Assembly: GCF_000733935.1 (NCBI RefSeq)
Contig: NZ_JPON01000001.1
Span: 4,042,623 to 4,106,622, forward strand
From: Methylomarinum vadi
GTDB taxonomy: Bacteria; Pseudomonadota; Gammaproteobacteria; Methylococcales; Methylomonadaceae
Direction of reading: 5' to 3'
Length of the DNA stretch: 64,000 nt
In this document: positions 4,922 to 55,957 of the stretch, one piece after another
How positions within the stretch are numbered: the first letter of the stretch is position 1
How the letters are laid out: each line of letters starts with the position of its first letter
The notes under the pieces: generated by a model
The model's database searches: none
Seen by the model: only the letters and a program-made list of their open reading frames with translations
Told to the model about the DNA's origin: nothing
Position numbers and translations under genes: made by a program

Positions 4922-7222
4922 TCAATGAGCCTCCGCTGTCTCAACTTGTTGCCAAGCGCTGTTACCGAGATAGCGGTAACAGCGGCCATTGTCCGGATCG
5001 ATGCGAAACAGGTGCAACCAGCGGTGGTCGACCAATTGCCGTACCGCTTCATGTTTATTCAGCACATTTTCAATCGCGAGCGCGGATGCTTCTAACAATA
5101 CGGTCAGTCGTAGCGGTTCGTGGCGCAACTTCTGGCCATCGTGTACCGATTGCCAAGGCAGGCCCACCTGCAGATCGCCGCCGTTGCCCTGCAAAATACC
5201 GAAAGTGCCGACGACGTTGTGGATCACCTTGTTGCCGCTGCCGAACAGTTTGTTATTGACCGTGGATGCGTAATATTGCAGATTGATCCAGCTTGCCACG
5301 ACCATCGGCGCGGTCATGATCAACTCCAGGATCGCTCCGTCCTTATCTTGCCTGGCGTCGTAATTATGCAGAAACACCCGGCCGTTGAATGTCGCCTGTT
5401 GGGTTCTTTCCCTGGGGGCGGCGATGAAGGCCGCATTGCCGGTCAAGCCCCACTCCGGGCGTACTTGCGACCAGTCGTGGCTGCGAGCGGTTATCGCTTG
5501 AGCCACATCGGCTTGATCTCGCGACGTGATTCCCAGTCCGCCCGCCCGTTCGAGGCGCGCCAGTTGTGATGCCTGGTTCAGCCAGGCGCTCAGTTGCGCC
5601 AGCTCGGCGGCGAACGCCTGCGGAGCGTTGTCCAGGTCGAACAGATGTATTTCATCGGTGGTGGTATCGTGTTGGCCGGCCACGAACCAGGTGTCGCGCG
5701 GAATGACGATGCCCTGAGCGGCCAGACCCGAACGTACTTCGCGGTCGTTCAGCGTCGCCGCCGCGACGCGCGCATTGGCTTCGCCGCTGTGGCCGCCGCA
5801 GGCGCCGCAATCGAGGCCGGAGCCGTACGGATTGTTCACCGTACTGCTGCCGTGTCCGCACAGTAACACCAGCCGCGCGAAATTGCCGGTCAAACCCATG
5901 CCTTGCAGGGCATTGCGCGCCAGCTCGATCCGTTCGCTCAACGCGATGCCGGTTTCGACCACCGCTCCCCCGGCCACCAGACGACCGCGTTGCCGATTGA
6001 TCAATGGTCCGATACGGCGCACGATAGCCTTGTCCAGTCCGGCCGTACCTGGCTTTGCCACCGGTCGAGTCAGGCCGAGGGTGTCGGTAAACAATTTGAT
6101 GCCGAACAGTAAACCGGCAATCTCAACATAGGAAAAACAGGATACCGCCGAGTTTTTGAATGACTTCCACAGTTTATAGAGCCGTTTCCGCAACCACCGT
6201 TTTTCCAGGATTTCACCCAATTCGGACACCGTGGCACCGGATACGCTTTCGCGGATACTGAATTTCGGCGAGATCAGGACCGGGCATTGCGAGTTGCCGC
6301 GCGGGTGCCCCAGCGGGATGTACTCGATCGGAAAACCGAAGAAACCGGCGAAACCCAATGTTTCTGATTCCGCCGAGACTGTTTCCAAGGCCCGGCGATA
6401 GACCTCGGAGCGTACGTCTATGCAAAATACCGCCTGCACAGCCTTGCGCGCAGCGGAAGCGGCGACTGTTTCGGTGGAGGCCGGCTGCAGTGTCGCCAAC
6501 AATTCGCGTTGATAACCGATTTCATAGGCTAATTGGAATACGTTCAACAGTTCCAGCCGCTGATTTACCGATGTCGACGTGGCTAGAACGTCGTCCAGAC
6601 TAATCCGCCAGGCCACGACGCTGTCCTCACCGAGGGCGCGGCCTAACGCATAATCGTACGCCAGACGGATCGCGAGCAGATCGGCCAAGGTTGCTTTCTC
6701 CCGGTCATGCCGGAATGTCTCGCGCATTTGATATTGAATCCAGCCGCTCCAACCCGAGACAGACATTAACTGCCGGTGTAGAAAATCAGGAAGATTTTCT
6801 TCGGGCGGGCGACAAACCTTGAGCATCTGTTGGATCGCCTCTTCGGAGTTATCCGGCAAGGTTTCGATGACAAGACGAAAATTAGCCAGACCGGCGATCT
6901 CCGGGTTGCGGTCCAGCAGGGCGACGCGCTTCCAGGCCTGATACAACGGTAGCGCTCGCCACGGCATGCGCCAGGCGGATTGGCCCTGATCGAAATAGGC
7001 GGCACACCATTTCGAGATTTCGTCGGTGATGAAGCTGGCCCAGGTCGTTCCTTGATCGGCGTCGACGAAATCGGCGAAGGTAGGTAACAACTCGGCGGAT
7101 ATGACCTTGTCATCTCCAGCGCACATGTCGTCCAAGGCAGCTTTGCAGCCGGCCGCGCTGGGGTCGGTTAAAACGGTCGGTTCGCTCAGTCCGATGGCTT
7201 GATTCAGATCGTCATCATTAAT
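4922..7222 (-). pseudogene. dabA: DabA-type inorganic carbon transporter subunit, C-terminal piece
   Basis: This is the large C-terminal part (about 766 codons) of a DUF2309/DabA protein, the soluble carbonic-anhydrase-like subunit that works with the membrane subunit DabB to accumulate inorganic carbon. Likely zinc ligands survive: Cys and Asp in FCIDVRSE, His in LCGHGSS and Cys in DCGACGG. Translation is open right up to the IS boundary at 7222 with no start of its own; TTG 7135 is the first candidate and lacks a good ribosome site. Removing the 586-bp IS rejoins it in frame with the 93-codon N-terminal piece at 7809-8087, giving about 859 aa. The copy is therefore a recent gene disruption. 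Confidence 0.9.
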
Positions 7223-25512: not shown

Positions 25513-26031
25513 ATGCAGGCAAAACACAAAAAAGAAGAAAAATTCAAGAAACGGTTGCAAAAGGTGCTTTGCTCAGAGAATTTGCAGCAGCAACGTGACC
25601 TGATTCAACGTATTGCCGCGGAGTTGAAATTGGATATGTTGGATTGCGCCGCCGCTTTGGTTTATCTAAGCCAGCCGAATCTGTATCAATCGGTCAAAAA
25701 AACACACTCCGAATGTACGCATAGCTTAAATTTCGAAATACCTCTAAGCGCGCCCAAAAGAAAGAGCGTCCGCTATCGGCTGGAAGTCGGTAGTCGCCAT
25801 CAAGTCAAGCCCGAGGAAATCAAAGATATATTGGTGGCGGAATCGGGTGTGGACAGAAACAGAATAGGTCGGATCGACATTCGTGATCACTATACCCTCG
25901 TCGAACTGCCCGATGGGATGCCGGCCGATATTTTTCAATTATTGGGCGAAGTGGAAATCCGTCGGCAAAAACTGAATATCAAGCGTTTGAAATCGCAACG
26001 GAAATTCAGGCGATTTCGTAATCCGGCTTAA
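25513..26031 (+). CDS. Stand-alone DbpA-type RNA-binding domain protein
   Basis: A 172-aa basic protein. Residues ~80-160 (RYRLEVGSRHQVKPEEIKDILV to EIRRQKLNIKRL) match the DbpA/CsdA RNA-binding domain that normally ends DEAD-box helicases, but there is no helicase core here or nearby. The N-terminal ~60 residues are highly charged, followed by a helical stretch (LKLDMLDCAAALVYLSQ) resembling the helicase region just before that domain. Probably an RNA-binding protein of ribosome-linked function; role unknown. It appears to be the last gene of lptD-surA. Confidence 0.78.
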   Translation: MQAKHKKEEKFKKRLQKVLCSENLQQQRDLIQRIAAELKLDMLDCAAALVYLSQPNLYQSVKKTHSECTHSLNFEIPLSAPKRKSVRYRLEVGSRHQVKPEEIKDILVAESGVDRNRIGRIDIRDHYTLVELPDGMPADIFQLLGEVEIRRQKLNIKRLKSQRKFRRFRNPA

Positions 26032-26063: not shown

Positions 26064-26702
26064 TCAGGCAGCTTCGCCAACGAAGGGATTCGAACGCATT
26101 TCCTCGCCGAAGGTCGACATCGGGCCGTGGCCGGGGATGAAGGCGACGTCTTCGCCCAGCGGCCATAATTTGTTGCGGATAGAGGCGATCAGGGTGGGAA
26201 AATCGCCTTTGGGGAAATCGGTTCTGCCTATCGAACCCTTGAACAGCACATCGCCAACGATGGCGAGTCTGATTTTTGCATTGAAATAAACGATATGGCC
26301 CGGCGTATGGCCTGGACAATGGATGACGCGAAGCGTCTCGTTACCCACTTTTACGTGGTCGCCATCGTGTAACCAACGAGTCGGCGCGAAGGTTTCGCAC
26401 GGAGGAAAACCGAAGGTTTGGCATTGTTCCGCCAGCGCCGCTATCCAAAAATTGTCCTCGAAATGCGGGCCATAAATCGGTAAAGACAGTCTGATCGCCA
26501 GTTCCGCGACACCGCCGACGTGGTCGAGATGGCCATGAGTGACCAGAATGGATTGCAATTCAACCTTTTCCTGGTCGACTCGGCGTAAGATTAGGTCGAG
26601 GTCTCCGCCGGGGTCGACGACCGCGGCCTGATTGGTTTGTTCGCAAATCAATAAGGAACAGTTTTGTTGATACGGTGTGACAGGAATAATCGAAAATCTC
26701 AT
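26064..26702 (-). CDS. Glyoxalase II-like metallo-beta-lactamase fold hydrolase
   Basis: A 212-aa MBL-fold hydrolase of the YcbL/GloB2 type. Metal ligands are visible: THGHLDHVGG, HCPGHTPGHIVYF, GDVLF and the C-terminal PGHGPMS. The likely activity is thioester hydrolysis in the cytoplasm (type II glyoxalase), though substrate cannot be set. It is just downstream of lpd on the same strand with an 11-bp gap and may be part of the sucAB-lpd transcript. Confidence 0.88.
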   Translation of the reverse strand: MRFSIIPVTPYQQNCSLLICEQTNQAAVVDPGGDLDLILRRVDQEKVELQSILVTHGHLDHVGGVAELAIRLSLPIYGPHFEDNFWIAALAEQCQTFGFPPCETFAPTRWLHDGDHVKVGNETLRVIHCPGHTPGHIVYFNAKIRLAIVGDVLFKGSIGRTDFPKGDFPTLIASIRNKLWPLGEDVAFIPGHGPMSTFGEEMRSNPFVGEAA

Positions 26703-26714
26703 GTTGTTTTATGG

Positions 26715-28163
26715 TCACTCAAACGGCATGTGTAATGCCCGATTGGCCAGGGACAAAGCAGCTTCGTGGAGGGTCTCGGAGATGGTCGGGTGGGCGTGAA
26801 TCGTTCGGGCCAGGTCTTCCGCGCTGGCGGAAAACTCCATCGCTAGTACCGCTTCGGCGATCAGGTCTGAAGCTCTAACTCCGATGATATGCACGCCGAG
26901 GATGATATCGGTATCGGCTTGGGTAATGATTTTGACCATGCCTTCGGGGCGTCCCAGCGATTGCGCCCGGGCCGAGGCCCTGAAAGGGAAGCAGCCGACC
27001 CGGTAGTTTTCGCCCATGGCTTTCAGGGTTTGCTCGGTCTGGCCGACCCAGGCGATTTCAGGATCGGTATAGACGACATTGGGAATGTAGTCATAGTTGA
27101 TGGCGCTATGCTTGCCGGCGATCTGCTCGGCGACAAAGACCCCTTCCTCCAGGCCTTTATGGGCCAGCATAGGACCTAGCATGGTTAGGTCGCCTATCGC
27201 GTACACTCCCGGAATGTTGGTGCAACAATTTTCATCGACGTGAACGAAACCGTTTTCATCCAGTAACAGGTCGACTTCCGCTGCGGCCAGGTTTTCTGAA
27301 CTGGGCAATCGGCCCGAAGCGACGATCAGTTTATCCAGCGTAAGATGGTGATTGCCTTCGTGGTCCTGATATTCCAGCTTGATCCGATTGTTTTCAATGC
27401 GGGAGGAGACGACGCGGGCGCCAAGGCGGATGTCGAGGCCCTGCCGGCTGCTGAAGAGGAGATAGGCTTCCTGAGCGATTTGCTGATCGGCTGCGGTCAG
27501 GAAAGTTTCCTGCGCTTCCAGCATGATGACTTTAGACCCCAGTTTGTTCCAGATACCGGCCATTTCCAGGCCGATTGGACCGGCGCCGATGATGCCGAGT
27601 TTTTTCGGCTTTTCCGTCATGTTCAAAGCTTGGGTGGTGTCGATGATCAGTTCGTTGTCGAGCATCGCGCAGGGTAGGCTCATTGGTTTGGAGCCGGTTG
27701 CCAGAATGATATTGTTGCCTTCGATGAGATAGCCGGGCTGCTGATCCAATGGTTTGACCTCGACCTGGGAAGCGGACATGAGTTTGCCGTGGGCGTGAAT
27801 GCAGTCGATTCCGTAATGATCGAAAATGGTTTTGATTTGGCGGCTGATAGTCTCGGTTGTCCGGTTTTTACGGTTCACCATCTTTTTGACATCCAGCTTC
27901 AGGTTGTCGAAGCCGATCCCATGCGAACCGCTGTCCTTGACTAGCATGTGATAGATTTTCGCCGACTCCAGCAGGGCCATCGACGACAGGCAACCGGCAT
28001 TGATGAAAGTGCCGCCTAGACTGGCGGAATCTTTATGATTGCGCCAGTTGTCGATACAGGCCGTTTTCAGACCGAGTTGGGCGCAGCGGATGGCGGCCGC
28101 ATAACCGGCCGGTCCGGCTCCGATGACAATTACATCATAACTGGCTATAGAAGACATAGGCAT
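26715..28163 (-). CDS. lpd: Dihydrolipoamide dehydrogenase-like E3 with a degenerate redox site
   Basis: A 482-aa FAD/NAD oxidoreductase at the E3 position of the sucA-sucB operon. The FAD motif VIVIGAGPAGYAAAI, the NAD motif IIGAGPIGLEMAG and the C-terminal active-site HAHPTISETLHE are intact. The redox-disulfide loop is not: the family pattern GGTC-x4-GC-x3-K reads GGTF-INAGCLSSM here. The first Cys is Phe53 (codon TTC at 28005-28007), Cys58 remains, and the usual Pro-Ser-Lys is Ser-Ser-Met. Such a protein should not cycle a lipoyl disulfide in the usual way. It starts one base after the sucB stop; a second ATG two codons later is equally possible. Confidence 0.9.
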   Translation of the reverse strand: MPMSSIASYDVIVIGAGPAGYAAAIRCAQLGLKTACIDNWRNHKDSASLGGTFINAGCLSSMALLESAKIYHMLVKDSGSHGIGFDNLKLDVKKMVNRKNRTTETISRQIKTIFDHYGIDCIHAHGKLMSASQVEVKPLDQQPGYLIEGNNIILATGSKPMSLPCAMLDNELIIDTTQALNMTEKPKKLGIIGAGPIGLEMAGIWNKLGSKVIMLEAQETFLTAADQQIAQEAYLLFSSRQGLDIRLGARVVSSRIENNRIKLEYQDHEGNHHLTLDKLIVASGRLPSSENLAAAEVDLLLDENGFVHVDENCCTNIPGVYAIGDLTMLGPMLAHKGLEEGVFVAEQIAGKHSAINYDYIPNVVYTDPEIAWVGQTEQTLKAMGENYRVGCFPFRASARAQSLGRPEGMVKIITQADTDIILGVHIIGVRASDLIAEAVLAMEFSASAEDLARTIHAHPTISETLHEAALSLANRALHMPFE

Positions 28164-28164
28164 G

Positions 28165-29385
28165 CTAAATATTCAGTAATAAATGGGCGGGAGACTCCAA
28201 GCATTCCTTGATGGTTCCCAGAAATTGCACCGCCTCCTTGCCATCGACCAAACGATGGTCATAAGACAGGGCAAGGTACATGATCGGCCGTATCACTATT
28301 TCGCCATTTTCGACTACCGGACGTTCCTTGATGGCATGCATTCCCAAAATCGCGCACTGCGGCGGATTCAGAATCGGCGTCGACAACATCGAGCCGAAAA
28401 TACCGCCGTTGGTAATGGTAAACGTGCCGCCGGTGAGGTCTTCGACGGTCAGCGATCCTGCTTTGGCTTTATTGCCGTAATCGGCGATGCTTTTTTCGAT
28501 TCCGGCAAAATCCAGCTGGTCGGCATCGCGCACAACCGGAACGATCAGGCCGCGGGGCGTGGAAACGGCGATGCCGATATCGTAATAGCCATGGTAAATG
28601 ATGTCATTATCGTCGATCGAGGCGTTTACCGCCGGGAAATGCTTGAGCGCTTCGATGGAGGCCTTAACGAAGAACGACATGAAGCCGAGTTTAACGTTAT
28701 GCTTTTGTTCGAAACGCGTCTTATATTGTTGTCTTAGGTCGATGACGGCCTGCATGTTGACCTCATTGAAGGTGGTCAGCATGGCGGCGTTTTGTTGAGC
28801 CTGCAGCAACCGTTCGGCAATTTTGGCGCGCAGCCGTGTCATCGGGACCCGTTGTTCCGGACGCAGGCTGGAAGCGCTAACCGAGGAAAAATTGTTTTCT
28901 TCGTCGACAATCGGTTGTTCCTTGTATTCTTCTTTTCTCTCCGCTTTGCGATCGGCTTTTTGTTGTTTTTCCAGATAAGCCAGAACGTCGGTTTTCAGAA
29001 TACGGCCGTGTTTGCCGGAACCTAAGATGGCATGCGGGTCGAGTTGGTTTTCATTGATCAAGCGGCGCACGGCCGGACTCAGCGGAATATCCTCGCCTTG
29101 CACCTCTTCTTCGGCACCGCCTTCTTCCGCTTCGGTTTCCACCACCTCCTTTTCTTCCATTAACGCTAGAACTTCTCCGCCGACTACCGTCGAACCGTTG
29201 GTCTTCAGTATCTTGCTTAACACACCGGAAATGGGAGCGGGAACTTCCAGCACGACTTTGTCGGTTTCCAGGTCGACTAGGTTGTCGTCTTTGTTGACGA
29301 GGTCGCCGGGTTGTTTGTGCCAGCTGACCAGAGTGGCGTCTGAGACTGATTCGGGAAGGTCCGGGACCAGAATTTCAAAGCTCAT
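28165..29385 (-). CDS. sucB: 2-oxoglutarate dehydrogenase E2 (dihydrolipoyl succinyltransferase)
   Basis: A 406-aa E2 with one N-terminal lipoyl domain (lipoyl Lys in [10 protein letters not shown], residue ~43), an acidic linker, a peripheral-subunit-binding domain ([33 protein letters not shown] region), a charged linker and the catalytic domain ending in SYDHRLVDG with the active-site His. The start is the ATG at 29385 behind AAGGAA, overlapping sucA by 11 bases. It acts in the cytoplasmic TCA-cycle complex with SucA. Confidence 0.95.
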
Positions 29386-32212
29386 TATTATTTCCTTCGG
29401 ATTGTCCGTATAAAGCTGCGTGTACGACGGCGCGTTGTTCTTTGATATGGGTTCTGAAATTGCCGACAGCAGGCGCGGCGGAAGGAGGCCTTCCGGCATA
29501 GATTATGGTGATGTCTTTCGTCAGGTTGTTGTAGAAATGGTGTTTGCTCTGATACCAGGCACCCTGGTTCTTCGGTTCTTCCTGACACCAGACGATGCTT
29601 TCCACGTTTGGATATTTTTTCAATTGCTTTCTGAATAACACATCGGGAAACGGATAGAGTTGTTCGATGCGGATGATGGCGACATGTTTCAACTCATCCT
29701 GGCGGCGTACTTCCACCAAGTCGTAATAGATCTTGCCCGAACACAAGATCAAACGACTGACCTCCTTGGGATCGATATCATCCTGTTCGCCGATGACCGG
29801 TAAAAACCGTCCGCTGGTCAGATCCTCCAGCGTGGAGATCGCCAGTTTGTGCCGGAGCAGGCTTTTCGGGCTCATGATGATCAAAGGCTTGCGGAATTGC
29901 CTGATCAACTGGCGCCTGAGCAGATGGAATATTTGCGCCGGCGTGGTTGGATAGCAAACCTGGATATTATGATCGGCGCACAGTTGCAGGAAGCGTTCCA
30001 AACGGGCGGAAGAATGTTCCGGTCCCTGGCCCTCGAAGCCATGGGGCAGCAACATCACCAGGCCGCTGAGACGGCCCCATTTGGTTTCGCCGGAACTGAT
30101 GAATTGGTCGATGACGACCTGGGCGCCGTTGGCGAAATCGCCGAATTGAGCCTCCCAGATCACCAATTTGTTCGGTTCGGTCGAACTGTAACCATACTCG
30201 AAACCGAGCACGCCGGCCTCGGATAGCAAGGAATCGAAGATTTGCGCCCTGGCCTGGTGTTTATCGAGATGTTGTAGCGGGATATAAGGTTCGCCATTGA
30301 GTTGGTTGTAGATGATGGCATGGCGATGGGAAAAAGTGCCGCGACCGACATCCTGCCCGGTCAGGCGTACTTCAAAATTTTCCAGCAGCAGGGTCGCGTA
30401 AGCCAGGTTTTCGGCGAAGCCCCAGTCCAGCGGTAATGCGCCCGCGGCCATTTTATTGCGGTTTTCCATGACCTTGGCGACGCGCGGATGCAATTCGAAT
30501 CCCGCCGGCAGGCATTGCATCCTGTCGTTGCAATAGCGGATGCGTTCCAAAGCGACGCGGGTATCCGCCGGGCTGTCCCAATTCGCATGCAGGAAAATAT
30601 CCCATTGCCTGGAATAAGAATACAGTTCGCTGCCGAGGGTCGGGCGGGAGACGACCTGGCCCTCGTCCAACATCTGTTGATAGTCGGTTTCCATCGCCTG
30701 GGCTTCTTTTTCGTGCAGGATGCCGGCCTTGATCAGCTTATCCGCATATATTTGCCGGGTGGTCGGGTGATGCTTGATCTGTTTGTACATCATCGGCTGG
30801 GTGGCGGCCGGTTCATCGGCTTCGTTATGCCCTAGGCGGCGGTAACATATCAGATCGATCACAACATCCTTGTGGAACTGCATGCGGTATTCCAACGCTA
30901 ATTGGGTGACATACAGCACCGCCTCGGGATCATCGCCATTGACATGGAAAACCGGTGCTTGAATCATGTTGGCGACATCGGTGCAATACAGGGTGGAACG
31001 GGCGTCGAAAGGATTGCTGGTGGTAAAGCCGATTTGGTTGTTGATGACGATATGCACGGTGCCACCGGTGGAAAAGGCCCGCGTTTCCGACATGTTCAAC
31101 GTTTCCATGACGATTCCCTGGCCTGCGAAAGCGGCGTCGCCGTGGATCAGCACCGGTATCACGGTGTCGATACTGCCCTTGCCGCGCCTATCCTGGCGGG
31201 CCTTGACCGAACCTTCAACCACTGGATTGATAATTTCCAGGTGCGAGGGGTTGAAGGCCAGCGTCACGTGTATGGGCCCGCCCGGCGTGGCCAGGTTGGA
31301 GGAAAAACCCAAATGGTATTTGACGTCGCCGGTTAGCACGCCGGGGGAAGAAACGTGGGTGCCTTCGAATTCGCCGAATAAAGCGGCCGGGCTTTTGCCC
31401 AGGATATTCACCAAGACATTGAGGCGGCCGCGGTGGGCCATACCGATGACGACTTCTTTTACGTGTTTTTCGCCGGACCTTTGGATGAGTTCGTCGAGAA
31501 TCGGAATCAGGCTTTCGCCGCCCTCCAGGGAAAAGCGTTTTTGGCCGACGTATTTACGATGCAGGTGTTTTTCGATGCCTTCCGCCGCGATCAATAATTT
31601 GAGCGTCCAACGCTGCTTTTCGGGGTTGTCGGCCAGGCCTGGCCGGGTGCTTTCCAGTTTAGTCTTGATCCAGCGTTTCGACTCGGTATCAACGATGTGC
31701 ATGTATTCGGTGCCGATACTGCCGCAATAAATTCCCTTGAGGATTTTGATGATCTCTCTCAGCGGCAGGCGGTCGAAGCCGTACAGGGTGCCGGCATCGA
31801 ACAAGGTGTCCATGTCGGGCTCGGCCAGGCCGTAATAGGCTGGTTCCAGGTCGGCGGGAATCGCTTCATGCTTGCCTAACGGATTGTTGGCGGCAATCTG
31901 ATGGCCACGTACCCGGTAATGATTGATCAGTCTGGCTACTGCAGATTGTTTCTTGACGCTTTCCTCGGTAAAACCTTGTAATTTGGCTAAACGTCCGGGC
32001 GAGGAGATGGCCAGCTGCTCGAAACGTTCGACAATCGGGCTATGGGGAATGTCGATTTTTTCCTTGTCTTGCATTTTCCGGAACCGTTGTCGCCAGCTTT
32101 CCGGAACCGAGTCGGGATTTTCCAGAAATTGCTCATAGAGCTCCTCTATATAAACGGCATTATTGCCGTAAAGTGCTGATGACTCTCGAAACAATTTAAG
32201 AAGGTTGCTCAT
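29375..32212 (-). CDS. sucA: 2-oxoglutarate dehydrogenase E1
   Basis: A 945-aa thiamine-diphosphate-dependent E1, close to the ~930 aa of the E. coli enzyme. The N-terminus ([26 protein letters not shown]) and [33 protein letters not shown] and [11 protein letters not shown] segments are all typical, including the ThDP-site residues. It heads the sucA-sucB-lpd operon. With an E3 lacking one redox cysteine, the operon may yield an incomplete complex. Confidence 0.96.
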
Positions 32213-53809: not shown

Positions 53810-55957
53810 TTATCTTCTACGCCAGCGGTGATAACGCGCGACCCAGCGCAGCAAACCTTCCGGCGCATGCGCTTTCTTCCAGACGCCGGCCGCGTATTTG
53901 TTAGCCTCGGCCAGGGTCGGGTAGATATGGATCGTGCTCAGCACCTTATTCAAACCGATGCCGTGTTTCATCGCCAGCACGAATTCGGCGATCAGATCGC
54001 CGGCATGTTCGCCGACGATGGTAACGCCGATAATTTGGTCTTTACCCGGCTTCGTTAGAATCTTGACGAAACCATGCGCCTCGCCGTCGGCGATGGCCCG
54101 GTCCAGGTCGTCGATGCCATAGGTTACGGCTTCATAGGCGACGCCTTGTTGCCGGGCGTCCTGTTCATTGAGACCGACCCGGGCGGCTTCGGGGTCGGTG
54201 AAGGTCGACCACGGAATGACCGAATAGTCGGTGCGGAATTTCTTGAATCCGCCGAACAGGGCGTTCACCGCCGCGTACCAGGCTTGATGAGCGGCGGTAT
54301 GGGTGAATTGATAGGGTCCCGCGACATCGCCGACCGCGTAAATGTTTGGGTAATTGGTGCATTGAAACGGATCGGTGGCGATAGTGTTGCGCGGCGATAG
54401 TTTAATGCCGAGTTCCTCGATGCCGTAACCGGTAACGTTGGCGGCGCGGCCGATCGCGACCAGTACTTGGTCGAACGGGATTTTGACCGTTTGCCCCTCG
54501 TGTTCGGCGAACAGGATATTCTCGCCGTTTTCGACGGCAAATTCCCTGGCCGTGTGGCCGACCCGCATGTCGACGCCTTCTTGTTTAAAGCGCTGCATGA
54601 CCGTCTCGGACACTTCCGGGTCTTCGCGTGCCAGGATGCGTTCTGCCATTTCCACCTGGGTGACCCGGCTGCCCAGGCGGGCGAAACATTGCGTCAATTC
54701 GCAGCCGATCGGCCCGCCGCCAAGCACCAATAGCCGCTTCGGCAGCGCTCGCAAATTCCAGATAGTGTCCGAAGTGAGATAGTCGATCTTGTCCAGGCCC
54801 GGGATCGGCGGCACGAACGGACGGGCGCCGGCGGCAATGACGATGGCGCGGGTAGTCAGCTTTTTCACGCCCTCAGCCGTGGTCACCTGGACTTCCCACG
54901 GAGTAAGGATTTTGGCCTCGCCGGTCACGACCTCGACGCCGAGCCCGCGATAACGTTCGATCGAATCGTGCGGCTCGATGGTTTTGATCACCAGCTTCAC
55001 CCGTTCCATGACGGCGGCGAAATCGACATCGGCCTGGGCCTGCTTGATGCCGAATTCTTCGTGGCGCTTGAGATGCGACAGCCATTTGGCCGAACGGATC
55101 AGCGCCTTGGACGGTACACAGCCGGTGTTCAGGCAGTCGCCGCCCATCTTGTGCTTCTCGATCAGCGTGACCTTGGCTTTGACCGCCGCCGCGATATAGG
55201 CCGTAACGAGGCCACCGGAACCGGCACCAATGACGATCAGATTATTGTCGAACTGCCTGGGTTTTGGCCAATGTCGGTAGACCCTCAGTCGCCGTATCGC
55301 TTCTACCATTTTTTTTGCGATTAACGGAAACAACCCCAACAGCACGAACGCGCCCAACACCGCCGGCGACAGGATACCGGACAGCGAATCGATCCGTGCC
55401 AGTTGCGTGCCGGCATTGACGTAAACGACGGTGCCGGCCAGCATGCCGACCTGGCTGACCCAATAAAAGGTCCAAGTTCGAAGCGCCGTCAATCCCATCG
55501 CCAGATTGATCGCGAAAAACGGAAACAGCGGCACCAGCCGTAACGTGAACAGATAAAAGGCGCCGTCGCGAGCGATGCCTTCGTCGATGGTCTGCAGGCG
55601 TTTCTCGAAACGGGCCTTGACCGCATCGCGAAACACGAAGCGCGCGGCGAGAAAGGCCAGCGTCGCGCCTATAGTGGAAGCGAAGGAAACGATCAGGCTG
55701 CCCCAGAGCAGGCCGAATATGGCGCCGCCCGCCAGGGTCAAAACCGTCGCGCCGGGTAGCGATAGGCCGGTAACGGCGATATAAACCAAGGCATAGACCG
55801 TGATGGCCAGGGCCGGATGCGCGCTTCGGTAGGCTTCGATGTCGGCCTGCTTGGTCTTTAACGTTTCCAGGGTCAGATACTGGTGCAGATCGAACGCAAT
55901 AAACGCCGCGACAGCAACCGCGATTAACAATAACAACAGCCATTTCGATAACTTCAT
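53810..55957 (-). CDS. TVP38/DedA-like membrane domain fused to a mercuric-reductase-like flavoprotein
   Basis: A 715-aa fusion. Residues ~1-225 are a TVP38/TMEM64 (SNARE-associated, DedA-like) membrane domain with FGLLWGSLIVSFASTIGATLAFL and RLVPLFPFFAINLAMGL. Residues ~238-715 are a disulfide flavoprotein with IVIGAGSGGLVTAYIAA, the intact redox site GGDCLNTGCVPSKALIRSAK, NAD loop VLGGGPIGCELTQCF and C-terminal HIYPTLAEANKYA. There is no N-terminal MerA heavy-metal domain or C-terminal Cys pair, so mercury reduction is unlikely; a membrane-linked disulfide or quinone reductase is possible. The substrate is unknown. Confidence 0.88.
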   Translation of the reverse strand: MKLSKWLLLLLIAVAVAAFIAFDLHQYLTLETLKTKQADIEAYRSAHPALAITVYALVYIAVTGLSLPGATVLTLAGGAIFGLLWGSLIVSFASTIGATLAFLAARFVFRDAVKARFEKRLQTIDEGIARDGAFYLFTLRLVPLFPFFAINLAMGLTALRTWTFYWVSQVGMLAGTVVYVNAGTQLARIDSLSGILSPAVLGAFVLLGLFPLIAKKMVEAIRRLRVYRHWPKPRQFDNNLIVIGAGSGGLVTAYIAAAVKAKVTLIEKHKMGGDCLNTGCVPSKALIRSAKWLSHLKRHEEFGIKQAQADVDFAAVMERVKLVIKTIEPHDSIERYRGLGVEVVTGEAKILTPWEVQVTTAEGVKKLTTRAIVIAAGARPFVPPIPGLDKIDYLTSDTIWNLRALPKRLLVLGGGPIGCELTQCFARLGSRVTQVEMAERILAREDPEVSETVMQRFKQEGVDMRVGHTAREFAVENGENILFAEHEGQTVKIPFDQVLVAIGRAANVTGYGIEELGIKLSPRNTIATDPFQCTNYPNIYAVGDVAGPYQFTHTAAHQAWYAAVNALFGGFKKFRTDYSVIPWSTFTDPEAARVGLNEQDARQQGVAYEAVTYGIDDLDRAIADGEAHGFVKILTKPGKDQIIGVTIVGEHAGDLIAEFVLAMKHGIGLNKVLSTIHIYPTLAEANKYAAGVWKKAHAPEGLLRWVARYHRWRRR

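Follow-up and report, generated by a model that had tools for sequence, protein, structure and literature searches.

The third gene of the 2-oxoglutarate dehydrogenase (OGDH) operon of Methylomarinum vadi encodes an E3-family protein in which the first redox cysteine is replaced by phenylalanine, and the same site is without cysteine in every readable member of a clade that spans 27 genus-level groups. The loss has a single origin and is accompanied by purifying selection, kept nucleotide sites, a kept predicted fold, linkage to the operon and a canonical E3 elsewhere in the genomes. As the rest of the protein is kept largely intact, it probably serves a different, NADH- and flavin-based job. 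We lean towards the view that a former OGDH-linked E3 has become a dithiol-free, NADH-reducible flavoprotein that would pass electrons to a non-disulfide acceptor, perhaps still in association with the OGDH complex. The gene was read in a window of 64,000 nucleotides, which is the whole stretch of DNA analysed, and the following features are given in window positions.

29375 to 32212, minus strand: sucA, the E1 of 2-oxoglutarate dehydrogenase (1334.5 bits to NF006914)
28165 to 29385, minus strand: sucB (E2), likely start MSFEILVP at 29385; lipoyl lysine, E3-binding domain and HxxxD active site kept
26715 to 28163, minus strand: E3-derived flavoprotein gene, third in the sucAB operon (ORF of 482 residues; TIGR01350 lipoamide_DH, 456.3 bits, cut-off 408.8)
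28104 to 28121, minus strand: FAD dinucleotide-binding GxGPxG, residues 15-20, kept
28005 to 28007, minus strand: codon 53, TTC (Phe; plus-strand bases GAA), in place of the first redox (interchange) cysteine
27990 to 27992, minus strand: codon 58, TGC (plus-strand bases GCA), the second (charge-transfer) cysteine, kept in the window protein
27978 to 27980, minus strand: codon 62, ATG (Met), in place of a lysine invariant in 41 of 41 canonical E3s
27564 to 27587, minus strand: NAD-binding GxGxxGxE, residues 193-200, kept
27189 to 27194, minus strand: Gly324-Asp325, the second FAD motif
26790 to 26792, minus strand: His458, the catalytic base in canonical E3, kept in the window protein
26775 to 26777, minus strand: Glu463, the partner of His458, kept in the window protein
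26064 to 26702, minus strand: metallo-beta-lactamase-fold hydrolase, directly downstream of the E3 gene

In the alignment to 1lpf and 5u8u, the window protein reads GGTFINAGCLSSM (GGT-F-INAG-C-LSSM), where the solved E3s read GGTCLNVGCIPSK (GGT-C-LNVG-C-IPSK). A preliminary description had noted phenylalanine at codon 53 where the family has cysteine, the retention of Cys58 and the change of Pro-Ser-Lys to Ser-Ser-Met, and all three changes or retentions are found as it described them, with LSSM facing IPSK in the alignment. It had also called the FAD and NAD sites and the C-terminal histidine preserved, and the corresponding motifs and the C-terminal HPT..E are indeed present in the window protein. 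A loss of E3 activity is what we infer from the residues of the protein. Though above the score cut-off of TIGR01350, the protein lacks the Cys-x4-Cys of dihydrolipoamide dehydrogenase; the same cut-off is passed by nine of ten other clade members tested (10 of 11 with the window protein). Other identities within the family were rejected by score: the protein reaches 290.3 bits to the Si-specific NAD(P)+ transhydrogenase (NF003585, cut-off 465) and lies far below the cut-offs of mercuric reductase and glutathione reductase.

Several observations concern the surroundings of the gene. The mechanical ORF of sucB (28165-29499, minus strand) begins 38 codons upstream, inside sucA, and the likely start at 29385 leaves an 11-base overlap with the sucA end. 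No Rfam match to an RNA element was obtained in the window. At 25513-26031 (plus strand) lies a stand-alone protein with a DeaD dimerisation domain (PF25399) and a DbpA RNA-binding domain (PF03880), in which Pfam finds no helicase core. Within a 727-residue frame (L003) at about 53891-55243 (minus strand), an E3-family reductase domain (GGDCLNTGCVPSK) is fused behind an N-terminal membrane region, which to us resembles a TVP38/VTT-type domain.

A search for orthologues gave matches in 166 of the family's 237 genomes at E up to 1e-110, and in 185 of the order's 311 at E up to 1e-125. The Cys-less clade set comprises 170 sequences from 169 genomes, five of them fragments unreadable at position 53. 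The preliminary description had left to an alignment of orthologues whether the change is conserved, and Cys53 is present in none of the 165 readable relatives: position 53 is Tyr in 80, His in 55, Phe in 28, Asn in one and Val in one, so that Tyr, His or Phe accounts for 163 of 165. Among the five other genomes of the same genus searched, four carry the gene, all four with Phe53, and the fifth (G002) gave no match to the E3 gene. With phenylalanine in these four genomes and cysteine in no relative, a sequencing or assembly error at codon 53 can practically be dismissed. Beyond what the preliminary description covered, the change is clade-wide, its substitute is nearly always Tyr, His or Phe, and the second cysteine and the catalytic dyad also decay in many members.

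Canonical sucB-linked E3s served as controls. The order-wide matches outside the clade include 18 genomes of f2 and two of f8, of which eight and two, respectively, were read; together with two loci from Gammaproteobacteria (L016 and L017) they give 12 canonical sequences, all reading GGTCLNVGCIPSK. A class-wide sample of 114 genomes, the window's own included, yielded 66 matches at E up to 1e-120, and the best 29 of the 65 non-window matches are sucB-linked E3s from 29 other families of the class, every one keeping both cysteines. Both cysteines and the His-Glu pair are kept in 41 of 41 canonical sucB-linked E3s, each behind a sucB. The E3s of the pyruvate dehydrogenase (PDH) type in the order likewise carry both cysteines (GGVCLNVGCIPSK) in all 30 read. 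Distant E3-family proteins of other phyla (L018-L033) did not enter the controls; both cysteines are present wherever the pattern caught the motif, L018, L021, L026, L030 and L033 standing outside that set.

Against this background, the decay in the clade extends beyond position 53. Position 58 is Cys in 116 of the 165 readable members, Ser in 23, Gly in 19, Asp in four, Asn in two and Thr in one, the second cysteine thus being lost in 49. At position 62 none of the 165 has the lysine, and Met, Ile, Leu, Val or Phe stands there instead. His458 and Glu463 are kept together in 94 members and changed in 71, compared with 41 of 41 canonical sequences that keep both, and position 458 is not His in 43. 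At 133 positions at least 95% of the 41 canonical sequences share one residue; 66 of these positions still reach that level in the clade, and at 20 the canonical residue is found in fewer than 50% of its members, six of the 20 falling at 52-68, which is the redox motif and the following helix. The loss of the second cysteine and of the dyad indicates that thiol chemistry is not what the clade conserves. Judged by these residues, a shared thiol chemistry is excluded for the clade as a whole, a conclusion that does not extend to single members keeping Cys58, such as the window protein.

The E3 tree indicates that the cysteine was lost once. It contains 95 bacterial rows, obtained from 172 sequences of at least 430 residues by thinning at 86% identity, with the motif columns removed, and the Cys-less E3s (88 of the 95 rows) form one side of a branch with an SH-aLRT of 98, a support value from a quick search without bootstrap. 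Parsimony places 12 changes at position 53. One most-parsimonious reconstruction starts with a single step from Cys to Tyr, continues with nine exchanges within Tyr, His and Phe, and adds a step to Val and a step to Asn, the last two both on long branches; Cys never reappears. For position 58 the same tree requires 14 changes. The ancestral gene would have been an OGDH-linked E3 of the Pseudomonas LpdG type, and its dithiol centre was probably lost once, by a change of Cys to Tyr or Phe, in the ancestor of f1 and the small families f6 and f7.

E3-family proteins without a dithiol centre are already known, and the nearest measured case is Irc15p of Saccharomyces cerevisiae. It is described as a paralogue of Lpd1p that has Tyr and Ala in place of the two cysteines and carries one FAD per protomer; NADH reduces this FAD at 250 per s, electrons pass to menadione, ferricyanide and dyes, lipoamide, glutathione and cystine are reported not to react, and a structural change is linked to NADH-dependent peroxide formation (PMC6296175). 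As far as that description allows a comparison, the methanotroph proteins share with Irc15p the loss of the dithiol centre, the kept FAD and NAD sites and the predicted E3 fold, and the replacement of the first cysteine by Tyr, the commonest residue in the clade. Irc15p differs in that it is eukaryotic and microtubule-associated, with Ala for the second cysteine and, according to the source, the His-Glu dyad kept (PMC6296175), whereas the clade consists of bacterial OGDH-operon E3s in which 116 of 165 members retain the second cysteine and 71 show a changed dyad. LpdA of M. tuberculosis is described as an E3-like flavoprotein that lacks one cysteine and does not reduce disulfides, with quinone reductase activity reported; it also lacks the catalytic His-Glu pair, and the description used here does not present it as an OGDH-operon gene (PMC6296175). 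The soluble pyridine nucleotide transhydrogenase SthA is, by the same account, another E3-family flavoprotein without disulfide reduction (PMC6296175). Canonical LpdG (5u8u/5u8v) resembles the window protein in predicted fold (TM 0.94, with 49% identity in the structural alignment), operon position and FAD and NAD motifs, and differs from it in that the window protein lacks the first redox cysteine and has LSSM for IPSK. By analogy, the measured behaviour of Irc15p and the shared Tyr replacement favour a dithiol-free, NADH-reducible flavoprotein, with a non-catalytic pseudo-E3 as the main rival.

For the favoured flavoprotein, NADH would reduce the flavin directly, and the electrons may leave to a quinone, O2 or another one-electron or hydride acceptor. 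The protein would still associate with the OGDH complex, as its position behind sucB suggests, possibly by docking to SucB, and its redox or nucleotide state could tune the complex. The loss of the dithiol centre may have been tolerated because a second, canonical E3 behind aceEF could take over lipoamide oxidation. The preliminary description had pointed to a search for a second lpd gene with a cysteine pair, and such a gene exists: it carries GGVCLNVGCIPSK, lies at G000:C1:3736038-3737399 and follows ORFs that look like aceE and aceF. The same arrangement is present in Methylotuvimicrobium alcaliphilum 20Z, aceE and aceF being assigned in both genomes by size and lipoyl motif. At E up to 1e-120, a match to a PDH-type E3 was obtained for 285 of the order's 311 genomes (a few, such as G173 and G177, barely pass and may be fragments) and for 155 of the 169 genomes carrying the Cys-less protein, the other 14 all being drafts of about 200 contigs or more. 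In E. coli one E3 serves both complexes. In the Cys-less group, the lipoyl lysine of SucB is intact in 57 of 57 readable sequences and its HxxxD site in 58 of 58, and the E3-binding domain is retained too, so a canonical E3 could serve both complexes here as well.

The Cys-less gene is closely tied to its operon. In 157 of the 163 rows with enough DNA for the test (seven others had too little), sucB immediately precedes it. Gaps were measured at 41 operon loci, among them the canonical L145, and do not exceed about 25 bases in 38. The six rows without an adjacent sucB are G004, G005, G006, G008, G062 and G201; for G008, G062 and G201 only about 290-380 bases of upstream DNA were examined, and in G008 the coordinates place sucB about 340 bases upstream of the Cys-less E3. 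In two genomes of the window's genus, G004 and G005 (loci L012 and L013), the Cys-less E3 stands beside the metallo-hydrolase and away from sucAB, and this persistence weakens the case for service to the OGDH complex. In L012, the ORF between the two genes looks transposase-like to us. Two other signals proved uninformative: co-occurrence with sucB, because sucB is present in 292 of 311 genomes of the order, and the methane-oxidation marker PF02461, which 240 of the 311 genomes carry, including members of f2 and f8, where the E3s read are canonical, so that pmoA-type genes do not separate Cys-less from canonical groups. In one genome (G033), two Cys-less E3 copies (L254 and L259) lie near contig ends, possibly reflecting a strain mixture in a draft genome.

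The position behind sucB and the conserved E3-binding domain of SucB would also fit a non-catalytic pseudo-E3 that occupies this domain and regulates or limits OGDH, with FAD and NAD(H) in a structural or sensing role and with the PDH-operon E3 as competitor; we regard this as a possible, though distinctly less probable, explanation. Genome G158 is M. alcaliphilum 20Z, since 12 kb of its small replicon matches NC_016108.1 at 100%, and its OGDH-linked E3 reads GGTYINAGCVSSM, alongside the canonical PDH-type E3. In this strain pyruvate dehydrogenase is measured and NAD-linked 2-oxoglutarate dehydrogenase is given as N.D.; the table, for 20Z-R, lists pyruvate dehydrogenase as 120 and 290, and the text searched does not spell the abbreviation out (PMC5802761). 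These entries speak for a limiting pseudo-E3. On the other side, no such E3 lies near sucB in the seven f4 genomes read, and no f3, f4 or f5 genome matched order-wide at E up to 1e-125; M. capsulatus, which we take to belong to f4, carries weight in this respect. It too is reported to be without OGDH activity, as far as the sources consulted describe it (PMC517821, PMC8527097). Labelling of M. buryatense 5GB1 is, moreover, cited as showing that the oxidative cycle runs in full on methane and carries little flux when the substrate is methanol (PMC6456754). In our set, genome G159 carries a replicon 98% like the NC_016108.1 plasmid. We take G159 to be probably M. buryatense.

The gene is dispensable: the loci read from g16, g21 and g26 have no such E3 after sucB. 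Of 20 sucB regions from genomes without an E3 match, 19 show no E3 near sucB (five of g16, two of g21, two of g26, one of f6, seven of f4 and two of f5), and the remaining one, G236, holds a broken copy. Four g16 loci (L109, L111, L112 and L358) read sucA-sucB-hydrolase where the window reads sucA-sucB-E3-hydrolase; the gap between sucB and the hydrolase is larger in the g16 locus L110, and the hydrolase was not found in L113. Among the E3-bearing operon loci measured, the hydrolase occurs only in the window's genus (L089 and L090). On the SucB tree, g16, g21, g26 and G305 are placed among Cys-less lineages, with f4 and f5 branching outside, and this nesting suggests that the gene was lost after the cysteine was; repeated gene loss thus probably followed cysteine loss.

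These losses raise the question of a slowly decaying relic of a redundant E3 heading for deletion, with the repeated decay of the dyad and the second cysteine as further signs. In G236 (L114, about 5259-6667), a long-contig genome, the match to the E3 gene is split into three parts lying in different frames, apparently through two frameshifts. We nevertheless consider a relic very unlikely. Within genera, dN/dS has a median of 0.090 and a maximum of 0.18 (Nei-Gojobori, 398 pairs with dS 0.15-1.5, of which 242 come from the single genus g11), and none of the 170 profile rows contains an in-frame stop; G236 apart, a pseudogene is ruled out by these two results. Position 53, moreover, stays Tyr, His or Phe through nine of the 11 changes after the loss. 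In eight matched three-gene pairs, six of them from g11, dN/dS is 0.086-0.112 for E3, 0.068-0.161 for E2 and 0.042-0.055 for E1; only these matched pairs were used, as short C-terminal fragments distort the E2 median of 0.011 obtained from the complete set of 309 pairs. By these ratios, the Cys-less E3 is a maintained protein, constrained about as much as SucB and less than SucA. The only comparable canonical E3 pair has a lower dN/dS of 0.035, which is a point for the relic; measured against the clade median, this one pair suggests that the Cys-less E3 may be under relaxed constraint and is perhaps less constrained than a true E3.

The nucleotide sites, near invariant, also speak against a relic. 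In the NAD motif, G195 and G198 are kept in 170 of 170 clade rows, G193 in 169 and E200 in 167, and residue 216 is acidic (Glu or Asp) in all 170; an acidic residue at this position means a preference for NAD. In the first FAD motif, G15 and G17 are kept in 164 of 164 and G20 in 162 of 165; G324, D325, H335 and K336 are kept in 169 of 169 readable rows. Some decay is seen on the flavin side, where G157 is kept in 154 of 169, G50 in 149 of 165 and G51 in 157 of 165. The kept sites could be needed for folding alone. An AlphaFold2 model of the window protein, built from 13 sequences (the window protein and related loci), has a pLDDT of 88.1 and a pTM of 0.85, with Pseudomonas LpdG (5u8v) as its closest PDB match (TM 0.94), and thus predicts that the E3 fold is kept. 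The preliminary description had proposed that selection maintains a protein incapable of normal disulfide exchange; one ancient loss, no reversion in 165 sequences, a dN/dS of 0.09 and near-invariant FAD and NAD sites agree with that proposal, as far as sequence data can speak for an activity.

A further, very unlikely alternative is that the protein is still an E3, with Cys58 alone (for example together with glutathione or CoA) or another residue acting as the interchange thiol. Retention of Cys58 in the window protein and in 116 of 165 relatives speaks for such a mechanism, and it could operate in genera keeping this residue, such as g1; for the whole clade it fails, because 49 of 165 members have Ser, Gly, Asp, Asn or Thr there and the position changes 14 times on the tree.

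A dithiol-free flavoprotein derived from the OGDH-linked E3 may bear on a puzzle of type I methanotrophs, whose tricarboxylic acid cycle is reported to lack 2-oxoglutarate dehydrogenase activity despite the genes (PMC517821, PMC8527097); its absence in vitro is restated for M. capsulatus Bath (PMC8527097), and a recent paper holds that the matter of the methanotroph cycle needs clarification (PMC10602362). The evidence cuts both ways, and with OGDH data in conflict, the Cys-less E3 is a candidate for part of the puzzle and not its solution. The lack of a dedicated E3 is in itself a weak explanation of the missing activity, because one E3 serves both complexes of E. coli and because M. capsulatus is reported to be without the activity, although no Cys-less E3 is present in the f4 genomes examined. 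It is conceivable, but in our judgement unlikely, that the OGDH-operon E3 of a large type I clade became an NADH-responsive brake or electron outlet of the complex, which would hold OGDH off or divert electrons on methane or methanol and account for the activity missing in extracts.

Among the matches listed, no paper on a Cys-less E3 in methanotrophs was found in the open-licence PMC literature. As far as this search reaches, the new elements are the clade-wide conversion of the OGDH-operon E3 itself in methanotrophs, the constraint to an aromatic residue or His at the lost cysteine, and the later, repeated loss of the gene. The clade provides a bacterial case, across its genus-level groups, of an E3 whose redox centre was lost where that of yeast Irc15p was, in many members with an identical replacement. 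Absence of dihydrolipoamide activity in the Cys-less protein is what we infer, and a Cys-less subunit would, so the sequences say, be incapable of the dihydrolipoyl dehydrogenase reaction. Databases nonetheless call these proteins dihydrolipoyl dehydrogenase: the TIGR01350 equivalog accepts Cys-less members, so that automatic annotation overcalls the activity, and the mistake would pass into metabolic models that rely on these names. A conserved dithiol-free E3 in the OGDH operon is thus a specific candidate in strains that are already in culture.
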